Shown here one piece after another: positions 22,445 to 31,222 of a stretch of DNA of 33,769 bases. Under the pieces are notes generated by a model. It made no database searches and was not told the DNA's origin. It saw only the letters and a program-made list of their open reading frames with translations. The stretch's first letter is position 1. Every line of letters begins with the position of its first letter. Made by a program: the position numbers and the translations under genes. The DNA comes from Bacteroidales bacterium (GTDB lineage Bacteria; Bacteroidota; Bacteroidia; Bacteroidales; UBA932), in NCBI GenBank assembly GCA_017561665.1, contig JAFZBQ010000100.1:1-33769 (forward strand). The letters run 5' to 3'.

Positions 22445-22499
22445 AAATGCGCCCAATGGGGTTAGAAAATCTCCATTGGGTGCATTTTGAGCCTTTTTT
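22445..22499 (+). terminator. Rho-independent-type terminator of purB
   Basis: A 17-bp stem (22445-22461 with 22471-22487, two G-U pairs, 9-base loop) is followed, after a short gap, by six T residues (22494-22499). Read on the minus strand, the same stem is followed by a T-rich stretch, so it may also stop tpiA transcripts. Confidence 0.75.
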
Positions 22500-22534
22500 G
22501 TTCCTAATGGCAGTCTTTTTCCGCCATTGGGAAC
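22500..22534. terminator. Second hairpin between purB and tpiA
   Basis: GTTCCTAATGGC (22500-22511) pairs with GCCATTGGGAAC (22523-22534), a 12-bp stem with one wobble. It contains the same CCCAATGG core as the neighbouring terminator. It lies directly after the tpiA stop codon and probably takes part in ending tpiA transcripts. Confidence 0.5.
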
Positions 22535-22540
22535 AGTCTT

Positions 22541-27694: not shown

Positions 27695-28786
27695 ATGGCC
27701 GACCCCAGGGACGAGGAACTCCTGCAGGAAGAAATTGAACAGAGCGAGAGCGACGAACAGTTGTTCGAGCACTACCGCTTTGTGGTTGACAAAGGACAGG
27801 CACCCCTGCGCATAGACCGCTACATCGTAAGCAAGATGGAGCAGACCTCGCGCCACCGCATCCAGCTGGCGCTGGAGGCCCAGTACGTGCGTGTGGACGG
27901 CCGTCCCGTCAAGGCCAACTACAAGGTCAAGCCGGGGGATACCATCACCATAATGCTCCCCTACCAGCGGCGCGGCTTCGAGGTTCATCCGGAGCCGATT
28001 CCGCTGAACATCGTATACGAAGACGACGACCTGCTGATAGTGAACAAACCCGCCGGGATGGTGGTACACCCCGGTTTCGGACACTTCTCCGGGACACTCA
28101 TCAATGCGCTGGCCTACCATCTGGGCATCAGTCAGGACGCCGACGCCACCGACGAGCGGATGGGAGTTCTGGTGCACCGCATCGACAAGGACACCTCCGG
28201 ATTGCTGGTGGTGGCCAAGAACGAGATTTCGCAACTTAAGTTGGCGGGGCAGTTCTTCGAACATTCCATAAAGCGCACATACTGGGCGCTGGTTTGGGGT
28301 AATGTGGCCGACGATGCCGGCACAATTGAGGGGAATATCGGACGCGACCCCAACGACCGGATGCGCTTCAAGGTGTTTGAAGACGGTTCCCAGGGTAAGA
28401 CTGCCATCACGCATTACCGCGTGCTGGAACGCTTCGGCTACACCACTCTGGTTGAATGCAATCTGGAGACTGGTCGCACCCACCAGATCCGCGTCCATAT
28501 GAACTACATCGGCCACCCGCTGTTCAACGACGACCGCTACGGCGGCGACCGGGTGCTCAAGGGCCCCATCTACGCCAAGTACAAACAGTTCATAGACAAC
28601 TGCTTCGCCATTATGCCGCGCCAGGCGCTCCACGCCAAGACTCTGGGATTCATCCACCCCGGAACTCATAAAGAGATCTTCTTCGACAGCGACATTCCCG
28701 ACGACTTCAAGGCACTTCTGGAAAAGTGGCGCTCCTACGCCACCGGCCGCGACACCCTCCGCACCGTCCAGGAAGAGGAGTACTAG
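27695..28786 (+). CDS. RluA/RluD-family rRNA pseudouridine synthase
   Basis: 363 residues. An S4 RNA-binding domain (about 28-90: RIDRYIVSKMEQTSRHRIQL) is followed by the synthase domain with HRIDKDTSGLLVVAKN, whose Asp is the nucleophile, and LETGRTHQIRVHM. The S4 domain and length fit RluD, which makes pseudouridines in helix 69 of 23S rRNA, but RluA/RluC-type specificity cannot be excluded. It begins one base after the PASTA gene and ends the unit. The repeat-flanked transposase cassette starts 30 bases after its stop. Confidence 0.93.
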   Translation: MADPRDEELLQEEIEQSESDEQLFEHYRFVVDKGQAPLRIDRYIVSKMEQTSRHRIQLALEAQYVRVDGRPVKANYKVKPGDTITIMLPYQRRGFEVHPEPIPLNIVYEDDDLLIVNKPAGMVVHPGFGHFSGTLINALAYHLGISQDADATDERMGVLVHRIDKDTSGLLVVAKNEISQLKLAGQFFEHSIKRTYWALVWGNVADDAGTIEGNIGRDPNDRMRFKVFEDGSQGKTAITHYRVLERFGYTTLVECNLETGRTHQIRVHMNYIGHPLFNDDRYGGDRVLKGPIYAKYKQFIDNCFAIMPRQALHAKTLGFIHPGTHKEIFFDSDIPDDFKALLEKWRSYATGRDTLRTVQEEEY

Positions 28787-28815
28787 CTTTTCTCCTATCG
28801 CCTACCTCCTTGTGA

Positions 28816-28971
28816 GGATAACAGTGCTCGTATATGCAGCGTTACCCGCATTTTGCACACTACTTGGGGGTAACAGTACATTTCTCCGCAGCGTTACCCG
28901 CATTTTTGCCCCTTTTTGAGGGTAACAGTGCTTGTTCACATAGCGTTACACGCATTATTCCCTGTCCAAGA
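28816..28971. repeat. REP-like palindromic array, three 52-bp units (left side)
   Basis: Units start at 28816, 28868 and 28920, each exactly 52 bp. Each has a left arm GGGTAAC (GGATAAC in unit 1) at positions 1-7 and a right arm GTTACCC (GTTACAC in unit 3) at 26-32, so each 32-bp core can form a hairpin. AGT follows the left arm in all three, and CGCATT follows the right arm. In units 1 and 3 an inner GCT/AGC pair extends the stem past a bulge, as in known REPs. The third core ends 3 bases from the transposase stop codon, and its spacer runs into that gene. Confidence 0.85.
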
Positions 28972-29827
28972 GCCTGGCTGCGGTGGCATAGCTCACCCCG
29001 CACACCCGTGCAATCTGGTTTGCATCGGCACTGAAACGGTAGCGGATCTGGCGGGCGAACTCGGACTGCTCATCTTCGTTTAATTCCGCAAAAGACATTT
29101 TCTGAAACAAGCTCCGGCAAAGGTCCGGCATTATTGCAAGAATACTCTGATCCCGAAAGGAGGGCAAATTCTTACCCGCCGATTCAAGCCGCTTCTTCGC
29201 CTTGGAAGAGTTATTAAGAAAGTAGTTCATCCTGTTGGGAGAACGGAAACATTCTTCCACTGCCTCAACATCAACATACATCTGCGGCAGGATGTATCCT
29301 TCGTCACAAACGGTCCAATCTTCCGGCAACCCATCAAAATCACTATGAAAAAGTCTTCCAATTGCACGGTGAGAAAGACTTCCAATAGGGCGTCCTCCAA
29401 GTTTGGTTTGATTGAAGAAAGCATTCCCGGTTCCCCATGGCCATTGACTTGGGTGTGAGCAGATGTTGGCTGCGACACTGTTCATCTGAACATATGCTAT
29501 CGCACGCTCAGGCGCCTCGTCTTCATACGGAATCGGCTTGACATCTACATCATTGAGTCTAAGGAATTTCTTGAGGCCGTACTTACGTCTCAGATAAATA
29601 GAATATCTGTGCTTGAACCCATTCAAAAAGTACAAGACATCCACCCGGGTACCCCGAAGAACAAAATGTACATGATTTGACATCAGTATAAAGGCCAGCA
29701 CAGAAACATCCCGGCAGCAGACAGCCTGAATGGCGACATAATTCATTGCCACCTTAAAATCTTCCTCGTCCCTAAACCACAGGCTGTCCTCAAGGTGGTC
29801 AGTCGAGAGCAAATAAATCATCTTCAT
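28955..29827 (-). CDS. REP-associated-type tyrosine transposase (RAYT, IS200/Y1-like)
   Basis: 290 residues from the ATG at 29827. The open frame runs further upstream, but only into the divergent gene and past the promoter. Y1-transposase features are visible: the HUH pair MSNHVHFVL (H52/H54), the conserved FKHRYSIYLRRKYG segment, and AIAYVQMNSVAANI (Y112 the candidate nucleophile) in the place of the usual Y-x-x-x-N-P-V motif. The C-terminal extension ends with a likely helix-turn-helix (ANQIARVCGVSYATAARLL). RAYTs are single-copy HUH enzymes that cut and join single-stranded REP DNA. The matching palindromes flank this gene. GC content is visibly lower than in its neighbours, suggesting transfer. 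Confidence 0.85.
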   Translation of the reverse strand: MKMIYLLSTDHLEDSLWFRDEEDFKVAMNYVAIQAVCCRDVSVLAFILMSNHVHFVLRGTRVDVLYFLNGFKHRYSIYLRRKYGLKKFLRLNDVDVKPIPYEDEAPERAIAYVQMNSVAANICSHPSQWPWGTGNAFFNQTKLGGRPIGSLSHRAIGRLFHSDFDGLPEDWTVCDEGYILPQMYVDVEAVEECFRSPNRMNYFLNNSSKAKKRLESAGKNLPSFRDQSILAIMPDLCRSLFQKMSFAELNEDEQSEFARQIRYRFSADANQIARVCGVSYATAARLLDRE

Positions 29828-29858
29828 AACAATCTCCGGCACTATTGCTCCGGTATTA

Positions 29859-29866
29859 CAAATATA
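29859..29866 (-). promoter_or_regulatory. -7 box of the transposase gene
   Basis: TATATTTG on the minus strand, 31 bases upstream of the ATG at 29827. It supports this start over upstream in-frame codons. Confidence 0.6.
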
Positions 29867-29878
29867 CTGGGAAATCCA

Positions 29879-29886
29879 TATATTTG
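29879..29886 (+). promoter_or_regulatory. -7 box of the glycosylase-like gene
   Basis: TATATTTG on the plus strand, 13 bases before the ATG at 29900. It has the same octamer as the divergent transposase promoter. Confidence 0.6.
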
Positions 29887-29899
29887 TCAAGAGTGAATT

Positions 29900-30526
29900 A
29901 TGGTAATTGAAAGTCATCCCTTCCAACCGTTTCTGCCTGACGGGGCGCGGATTCTGTTCCTGGGCAGTTTCCCTCCACCGGCGCACCGCTGGAGCATACC
30001 TTTCTATTACCCCAATTGGATTAACGATTTCTGGCGTATAATGGGGCTGATTCATTTCGGAGACAAGAATCATTTCTGTATCATCTCAGAAAAGATGTTT
30101 GACGAAGATGCCATACGCGCTTTCTGTGCTCAGGCCGGACTGGCTTTCTACGACACCGCATGCGAGGTACGACGGCTTAAGGACAATGCCTCCGACGCCT
30201 TTCTAGAGGTGGTGACGCCGACTGACATATCGGCAATCTTGTCCCAGACTCCAGACTGCGACACACTGGTCACAACCGGACGGAAGGCGACAGAGGTGCT
30301 TGCAGAGCAACTCTGTCGCAAAATTCCCGCTATCGGAGAATACGTGGAGATAAGTCATGAACAAGCGAATGTTCACAATAATATGGGGAACCATCAAGAC
30401 CGCCGCGGTCCCGGAAACGAGATATGCAACCGCACTGTACGCTTCTGGAGGATGCCCTCCACCTCCCGCGCCTATCCGCTACCGCTGGAGAAGAAAGCAG
30501 AGATTTATCGCAGACTATTTATGTAG
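29900..30526 (+). CDS. Uracil-DNA glycosylase superfamily protein (MUG-like)
   Basis: 208 residues. It resembles the short uracil-DNA-glycosylase-fold proteins of Bacteroidota: RILFLGSFPPP stands in place of the catalytic GINPG-type motif, FYYPNWINDFWRIMGL follows, VTTGRKATEVL forms the central strand, and MPSTSRAYPLPLEKK corresponds to the C-terminal N-P-S loop of MUG/TDG enzymes. These enzymes remove uracil or mismatched bases from DNA. The acidic or amide catalytic residue typical of UDG is not obvious at the first motif, so activity is uncertain. It is divergent from the transposase and enclosed by the same repeats, so it may travel with it, but it could equally be a resident gene beside which the element landed. 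Confidence 0.75.
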   Translation: MVIESHPFQPFLPDGARILFLGSFPPPAHRWSIPFYYPNWINDFWRIMGLIHFGDKNHFCIISEKMFDEDAIRAFCAQAGLAFYDTACEVRRLKDNASDAFLEVVTPTDISAILSQTPDCDTLVTTGRKATEVLAEQLCRKIPAIGEYVEISHEQANVHNNMGNHQDRRGPGNEICNRTVRFWRMPSTSRAYPLPLEKKAEIYRRLFM

Positions 30527-30543
30527 CGCACCCCGCAAAGTGT

Positions 30544-30647
30544 TGGTAACGCTGCTCGCGGGAGCACCGTTACCCGCAAAAAAGGCCCTAAATGAGGGTA
30601 ACACTTCCAGAACGAGTACTGTTACCCACACTTATCCCTCAATAAAG
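30544..30647. repeat. REP-like palindromic array, two 52-bp units (right side)
   Basis: Units start at 30544 and 30596, again exactly 52 bp apart, with arms at the same unit positions as on the left (1-7 and 26-32). The first core folds best: GGTAACG and CGTTACC enclose TGCTC-GCGG-GAGCA with a single C-C mismatch. The second has an 8-bp outer stem GGGTAACA/TGTTACCC. Orientation relative to the chromosome is the same as for the left array. They lie between the glycosylase-like gene and the end of ruvC. Confidence 0.82.
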
Positions 30648-30658
30648 ATGGTGAAAAG

Positions 30659-31222
30659 CTATTTGACGATACGTTCGGAATGGGCGGCGACGAAGCTTTT
30701 CCAGTTGGTGGAGGCTTTCTTATCGGTCATGGGATTGGTGAGCTGGTAGAAGTGGCACATCGCGATGGCGATGGCGTCGCTGGCATCCAGATATTTGATG
30801 TCCAGCTTCACGTCCATAGTGCGTTCCAGAATCTCCTTGACCTGCTCTTTGCTGGCCGCTCCCTTGCCGGTGATGGCCATCTTGACTTTGCGCGGAGCAT
30901 ATTCGAAGATGGGGATATTGCGCTGCAGCGCGGCGGCGATGGCGGCACCCTGCGCCCGGCCCAACTTGAGCATCACCTGCGGATTCTTGCCGTAGAACGG
31001 CGCCTCGATGGCCAGGTCGTCGGGCTTATACTGATCGTACAACTCCCCCACCTCGATGAATATGCGGCGGAGTTTTTCAAAATGATCTTTCTCTTTACGA
31101 AGGTCGATAATGCCCAGATCAACGAAGTGAACCTTCTTGCCATCAATAAGAATGACCCCGTAGCCCATTATCTGGGTACCGGGGTCTATTCCCATTATGA
31201 CTCTCTGGCCGCTTCGGGTCAT
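30659..31222 (-). CDS. ruvC: Holliday junction resolvase RuvC
   Basis: 187 residues. It cuts four-way junctions during recombinational repair with RuvAB. The RNase H-like fold has the catalytic acids in view: Asp in MGIDPGTQIMGYG, Glu in LAIEAPFYGKN, and the Asp pair in YLDASDAIAIAMCH. The TGKGAASKEQVKE segment is also typical. It lies 6 bases downstream of serS and is probably co-transcribed. The stop lies 11 bases from the last repeat unit. Confidence 0.96.
   Translation of the reverse strand: MTRSGQRVIMGIDPGTQIMGYGVILIDGKKVHFVDLGIIDLRKEKDHFEKLRRIFIEVGELYDQYKPDDLAIEAPFYGKNPQVMLKLGRAQGAAIAAALQRNIPIFEYAPRKVKMAITGKGAASKEQVKEILERTMDVKLDIKYLDASDAIAIAMCHFYQLTNPMTDKKASTNWKSFVAAHSERIVK

Follow-up and report, generated by a model that had tools for sequence, protein, structure and literature searches.

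The locus between rluD and ruvC studied here raises the question of what a transposase gene is doing among palindromes that recur on an exact 52-bp period in an uncultured, gut-type member of the Bacteroidales. The window, i.e. the whole stretch of 33,769 nucleotides that was analysed, belongs to a 2.2 Mb genome assembly which is 90% complete. Partnerships between RAYT proteins and repeats have been best studied in Pseudomonas and enteric bacteria, and what this locus presents is that known repeat-enzyme partnership in an unusually rigid form. Specifically, we regard it as probable that the cassette is a REPtron-like locus, in which a RAYT is flanked by its own non-autonomous doublets of 88-90 bp, spaced 51-52 bp from centre to centre, and processes or spreads them.

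Five 32-bp palindromic units start at positions 28816, 28868, 28920, 30544 and 30596 of the window, with a start-to-start step of 52 bp on the left as well as on the right side and no indels. The initial annotation had reported these positions and this step correctly, but not the arms, which are exactly GGGTAAC/GTTACCC in only two of the five units (28868 and 30596); the remaining three carry one substitution each (GGATAAC in 28816, GTTACAC in 28920 and TGGTAAC in 30544). Requiring both exact arms at a gap of 10-30 gives two matches in the window and no match in any of 100 dinucleotide-preserving shuffles, and chance palindromes as the source of the units were ruled out by these shuffles together with the model-free scan described below. 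The open-ended tandem array proposed initially was not borne out either, the repeated unit being a doublet, i.e. a pair of palindromes at a distance of 51-52 bp that are joined by a conserved spacer. The left doublet (units 28868 and 28920; 28862..28957, minus strand) lies downstream of the RAYT gene and scored 66.5 bits with the covariance model R2, in whose training set it is one of 16 elements. The right one (units 30544 and 30596; 30538..30633, plus strand) scored 77.9 bits with R2, which was also trained on it, and 23.3 bits with a separately built model, R1, to which it contributed nothing. The left side of the cassette consists of one doublet and one additional palindromic unit (28816..28847, plus strand), placed 52 bp before the left doublet and covered by a pair at 28810-28905 that scored 48 bits on the minus strand. 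Searching the whole window against Rfam at gathering scores gave no matches. As a side observation, doublets can grow, since more than two palindromes in phase are present at another locus (L026, 1910-2050) and on the left side of the window (28816-28951), and at L192 a whole doublet exists in two copies 168 bp apart.

The RAYT gene (28955..29833, minus strand) encodes an HUH/Y1 transposase of 292 aa whose C-terminal region resembles a DnaA domain. The protein scores just under the cutoff of the Pfam HUH/Y1 transposase model; the HUH/Y1 fold, the catalytic Tyr and the two His that define RAYT/TnpA-REP proteins are all present, and 4ER8 was the first-ranked match for the fold, the structure alignment including the window protein and 56 of 80 relatives. 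A PDB sequence search with the RAYT profile retrieved no meaningful match. In the window protein 58 residues lead from H56 to Y114, and the Y motif YVQMN is found in it and in most of 14 aligned RAYTs. Hairpin binding on single-stranded DNA followed by Tyr cleavage is established for this fold, and by analogy the window RAYT is likely to act in the same way. Upstream of the gene lies a promoter-like TAnnTTTG box, TATATTTG (29859..29866, minus strand), and a second copy of TATATTTG (29879..29886, plus strand) precedes the divergent glycosylase-like gene. This box, which we take to be the -7 box of Bacteroidetes, precedes 57 of 78 RAYT homologues (loci L257-L336) at a distance of at most 120 bp, vs 5 of 78 shuffled sequences, an enrichment which suggests that RAYT genes are expressed from a promoter of their own. 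The glycosylase-like gene (29900..30526, plus strand) is of the hypoxanthine-DNA-glycosylase type (TIGR04274, E 2.1e-9, 37.7 bits against a cutoff of 80) and is arranged head-to-head with the RAYT. The host flanks are an rluD-like gene on the left (27695..28786, plus strand), which encodes an RluA-family pseudouridine synthase scoring under the cutoff of the RluD model itself, and ruvC on the right (30659..31222, minus strand). The gene calls of the initial annotation (rluD, ruvC, an HUH-type transposase and a glycosylase-like gene) were right, the last two on sub-cutoff scores.

Palindromes of this kind are not confined to the window. A fixed-gap pattern allowing up to 2 mismatches retrieved 15 forward matches from the whole genome vs 3 for a reversed control pattern, and 11 of them are clear units. 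Five of these belong to the window, contigs C51, C94 and C6 contribute a pair each, and the step is 52 bp throughout; the remaining four matches appear fortuitous. The genome search suggested at the outset thus finds the palindromes dispersed and strictly phased. A doublet of a second family, with the stem CCCAATGG, occupies 22445..22538 (minus strand) of the window, where it fills the gap between two convergent genes that, judging from their protein sequences, we take to be purB and tpiA; it scored 48.1 bits with R1 before entering any model. The same genome carries a second RAYT, on contig C84, flanked by CCCAATGG-stem doublets, so that from the pairings C84/CCCAATGG and window/GGGTAAC each of two RAYTs in one genome has flanking and scattered doublets of its own stem. 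Out of 14 catalogued elements of this genome, five carry the stem of the window RAYT and nine that of the C84 RAYT, three and six of them, respectively, lying away from the RAYT. With R2, doublets were detected in at least 15 places, two of them overlapping. RAYT matches number nine in this genome, at eight places, and the seven places outside the window are 22-57% identical to the window copy. A third such RAYT (L048; contig C10, 48000-52000), matching in two separate pieces, has doublets with yet another stem nearby.

The association was then assessed across RAYT loci from named genome contigs, the best 80 of 201 relatives being kept; these come from uncultured Bacteroidales/Bacteroidia assemblies, many of them from ruminants, with one labelled Clostridia, and include near-identical RAYTs, hence the counts below are not independent events. 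R1 and/or R2 (best 150 of 260 model matches, plus further ones added) identified a doublet at 78 of the 80 loci, i.e. the RAYTs are flanked by repeats of their own, and at 66 of 68 loci after removal of the 12 contigs used for model building; the RAYTs of L286 and L310 had no doublet detectable by either model. R1 alone missed several families, e.g. those in the flanks of L020 and L024. Doublets lie at a median distance of 25 bp downstream and 113 bp upstream of the RAYT, and among the 71 loci whose flanks each reach 700 bp or more a doublet was present within 700 bp downstream at 61, upstream at 50, on both sides at 42 and on either side at 69.

Since R1 and R2 themselves carry the geometry, a model-free scan for palindromes sharing a stem 6-mer at 25-200 bp was run on 134 flanks of the 68 unused loci. 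It returned 62 palindrome pairs, 47 of them at 51 or 52 bp, vs two pairs in shuffled flanks, none at 51-52 bp, and nine pairs in 115 segments located 2.3-3 kb away, one of them at 51 bp. At least one pair at 50-53 bp was seen at 37 of the 68 loci, this simple scan detecting about half of what is there. The spacer motif, defined post hoc on inspection of the spacers, is present at 33 of 48 model-free sites vs 3.2 expected on shuffling. The stems on the two sides of one RAYT match: at 53 loci the 12 arm positions show 0.72 mismatches within a locus vs 5.78 between loci (a value as low as the former was reached in 0 of 10000 permutations), although this two-sided matching could stem from local duplication instead of enzyme specificity. 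In a tree of 79 RAYTs, from which L257 and L298 (internal stop) were left out, stems follow small clades. Over 55 loci, RAYT distance and stem distance are weakly correlated overall (Mantel r 0.178, equalled or exceeded in 17 of 5000 permutations), the signal coming from the closest pairs; therefore, stems turn over fast.

Around RAYTs that share 50-70% identity with the window copy, the doublet stems include AACGTCCCA, GCGGTAGGTC, CCGGTCC, CCCAATGG, TATGGGTCC and GTGCATACAGGTCC, and when doublets are aligned regardless of stem, what they share is their length, their feet and a spacer reading GC(A/G)AAAA-n-GGCC. Compensatory changes were counted in 97 cells vs 40.9 in shuffled alignments and 13-40 with the partner slid by one to three columns, for a structure that was drawn from the very sequences tested; further pair types are weakly above expectation (57 vs 51.8 shuffled, 46 of 500 shuffles as high). 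A single long hairpin and a twin hairpin fit the doublet sequences about equally. One universal covariance model was tried and fitted only part of the families, because of two stem registers (P1 sums 44 and 45), and R1 and R2 were kept separate for this reason. The foot is a TG paired with CA; in both palindromes, 95 of 96 elements have the G and all 96 the C with which it pairs, these elements having been picked by a model that already contains the TG/CA foot. The GT[AG]G tag is absent from the hairpin foot, the outer GTGC/GTGT being merely similar to it, and inspection of the 96 elements, whose stems differ by family, disclosed no common GGGGWSAS motif.

These elements were catalogued from the best 150 of 235 matches, which left 96 after removing repeats, and they avoid genes. 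Only 28, 13 and 11 of them lie wholly inside ORFs of at least 80, 150 and 200 aa, vs 79.0%, 70.2% and 65.0% of random windows from the same loci, so that the intergenic bias that the initial annotation had asked about is evident (13 of 96 vs 70.2% at 150 aa). As inverted pairs of palindromes that form one or two hairpins and are extragenic and dispersed, the doublets have the features of REPINs. A crude assignment of neighbours placed 22 elements between convergent, 30 between co-directional and nine between divergent genes, seven with one neighbour missing and 28 within an ORF call, and the gene ends facing them are more often 3' (87, median 42 bp) than 5' (50, median 103 bp). This last preference is what would be expected if the doublets were regulatory or terminator hairpins which spread long ago and have their main role in RNA. 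Read on one strand, a doublet is indeed a hairpin followed by a T-rich spacer, like an intrinsic terminator; the 22445 and 30538 elements fold strongly (z -7.43 and -6.66; -4.60 and -3.63); and, among 20 loci, the 3' end of tpiA bears a CCCAATGG doublet in the window's genome (G000), G016 and G021 and other sequence in other species, several of which show, by inspection, an ordinary terminator-like hairpin. However, the T-tract has no orientation bias in co-directional settings (16 with the direction of the gene, 14 opposed), the left doublet of the window folds weakly (z -2.31 and -1.34), and a pure terminator would not predict a stem common to the two sides of a RAYT locus and differing between loci. 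Thus, a main function as terminators is quite unlikely.

In relatives the gaps that hold doublets have different contents. The C51 site is empty in G015, where its two flanking genes are almost contiguous; the gap contains a GGGTAAC doublet in the window's genome, CCCAATGG-type doublets in G016 and G018, and some other filler in G023. The presence of different doublet families in one and the same gap, next to a genome where it is empty, argues against the doublets being relics inherited with the RAYT locus on which a domesticated host protein acts in place. The low copy number, the persistence of the doublet association across divergent RAYTs and the conserved promoter box would all be accommodated by such a scenario, which we nevertheless hold to be very unlikely.

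The rluD-ruvC locus itself varies between species. In G015, G023 and G009 the two genes are convergent and have a common stop region with nothing between them; in G006, G020, G041 and G021 other genes separate them; and in G016 a different gene adjoins ruvC. G017 and G018 have the glycosylase gene between rluD and ruvC, in opposite orientation and with neither RAYT nor doublets. Neither a doublet nor a RAYT turned up between rluD and ruvC, or on the ruvC side, in any of the ten relatives examined. Palindromes restricted to this locus and retained there in relatives without the transposase would have spoken against their mobilisation, as anticipated in the initial annotation; they turned out to occur elsewhere in the genome, and relatives that lack the transposase have no doublet here. 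On these arrangements, the RAYT and its palindromes look like an addition in the lineage of the window, of which the glycosylase gene is independent, and this gene was accordingly rejected as an obligatory part of the cassette. As a separate observation, the glycosylase of G018 forms part of a repair-gene island between rluD and ruvC with DUF5131, TSCPD and AlkD genes (L134, 1807-4616; the G017 locus being L135), also free of RAYT and doublets.

The same comparisons bear on the idea that the whole cassette is an autonomous transposon, IS200/605-like or a TIRtron, with the doublets as its ends. Doublets within 700 bp on both sides at 42 of the 71 loci with enough flank are what such an element would display, as is the placement of a glycosylase gene between the RAYT and the outer doublet at 10 of the 80 loci. 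Against this, the genome also has dispersed doublets that lack a RAYT, the companion gene is variable or absent, G017 and G018 have the glycosylase at this locus in the absence of RAYT and doublets, and no identical multi-copy cassette was seen in the window's genome. An autonomous transposon is therefore highly improbable.

Returning to the REPtron-like reading, a mechanism can be envisaged in which the RAYT, probably as a dimer, would engage the pair of hairpins that one doublet forms within one DNA strand. The rigid spacer would set the distance between the two RAYT active sites, 51-52 bp or about five helical turns being the tolerated distance, and cleavage at the conserved feet or in the spacer could lead to doublets being copied or moved into intergenic gaps. 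The stems would provide specificity, and the DnaA-like C-terminal region may recognise each family's stem in double-stranded form.

Two unrelated DNA glycosylases, TIGR04274-like proteins and AlkD (PF08713), recur beside this RAYT clade. In the fetched flanks of the 80 loci the window type was found near the RAYT at 14, AlkD at 19 and either of them at 25; a glycosylase lies within 1.2 kb of the RAYT at 22 of 80 loci and head-to-head within 400 bp at 13 of 80. No glycosylase was found beside distant RAYTs at 54 loci, whose flanks are shorter than those of the 80, neither set being phylogenetically independent. The presence of such a neighbour must have changed at least 13 times over the RAYT tree, and shared ancestry of a repair-gene neighbourhood is one source of the recurrence to be considered. 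The head-to-head glycosylases are of two unrelated kinds, in different species, and a bolder proposal is that of a rule-bound code, in which two palindromes some five helical turns apart are fixed by a RAYT clade with a DnaA-like second reader, the stem 'password' changes with each lineage, and the enzyme cooperates with DNA glycosylases, linking hairpin processing to repair; we consider this extended version doubtful. Antisense ORF calls reduced the clarity of the clustering of RAYT neighbours. Another recurrent neighbour is a small ORF containing a TIIHVEVKxTxEHLYFGS-like motif (L266, L291, L293 and L296).

RAYT homologues are present in 21 of 25 genomes of the genus and in none of 16 genomes of other families, and R2 doublets in 19 of 26 genomes of the genus (per-genome counts being lower bounds, with at most 150 candidates scored). 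None was retrieved at E <= 1e-4 from 196 other genomes of the order, a search with stricter filters and 21 candidates per genome which other stem families could escape.

Compared with the REP/REPIN-RAYT systems (E. coli TnpA-REP, Pseudomonas fluorescens GI-GIII), the window type shares the HUH/Y1 fold, extragenic palindromes in inverted pairs, a stem family matched to its own RAYT locus and dispersed copies. It differs in its low copy number, in the DnaA-like C-terminal region and in having TG...CA at the foot in place of the GT[AG]G of canonical REPs. In published REPINs the spacing is family-specific, GI having 71 bp and GII 110 bp (PMC3116915), whereas the doublets described here keep 51-52 bp and a common spacer in many families. 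Another related system is that of the TIRYTs, whose elements are TIRtrons (Di Nocera 2013) and which correspond to TnpA-REP subclass 2.1 (Quentin 2018). These are likewise RAYT-like enzymes with an NHVH motif, in which a conserved SS follows the core; they have a C-terminal helix-turn-helix, DnaA-like in part of the TIRYTs, to which the C-terminal region of the window RAYT may correspond; and inverted repeats flank their genes, some of these repeats being self-complementary and occurring as dispersed dimers (PMC3733652, PMC6006769). In contrast, the GGGGWSAS motif given there as common to TIRYTs is missing from the window-type doublets, and in the survey of Quentin et al. subclass 2.1 genes are reported to have no REP-like sequences in their vicinity (PMC6006769), unlike the 78 of 80 loci with doublets and the 51-52 bp geometry found here. 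Subclass 2.6 (RAYT group 5) resembles our case in being from Bacteroidetes with 'atypical secondary structures' lacking GT[AG]G beside the gene, but the same survey gives a median HUH-to-Y distance of 82, vs 58 here, and YIH[QN]NP as the Y motif, vs YVQMN (PMC6006769). Thus, of the initial suggestion of a distinct Bacteroidota form, a RAYT with its own phased REP-like palindromes stands, while RAYT-type genes of Bacteroidetes were already in print (PMC6006769). Among open-licence PubMed Central papers no description of the phased doublet was found.

The doublets are candidate DNA partners for subclass 2.1-like RAYTs, for which none was reported in the survey (PMC6006769). Moreover, they constitute a large natural series in which the stem varies at constant spacing, feet and spacer, separating a possible enzyme 'password' (the stem) from a required frame (51-52 bp), and the recurrent DNA glycosylase neighbourhood offers a lead on the cellular role of such RAYTs. 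Other arrangements were also noticed in passing. In other RAYT clades of the genus, loci have twin palindromes at a 63-bp period with a different spacer (L035, 2278-2376; L078, 2196-2294), and in genome G007 repeated doublet pieces, ATACCGGTCC, extend on both sides of one RAYT (L136, 384-1942; contig C107), in part with 66-bp steps.
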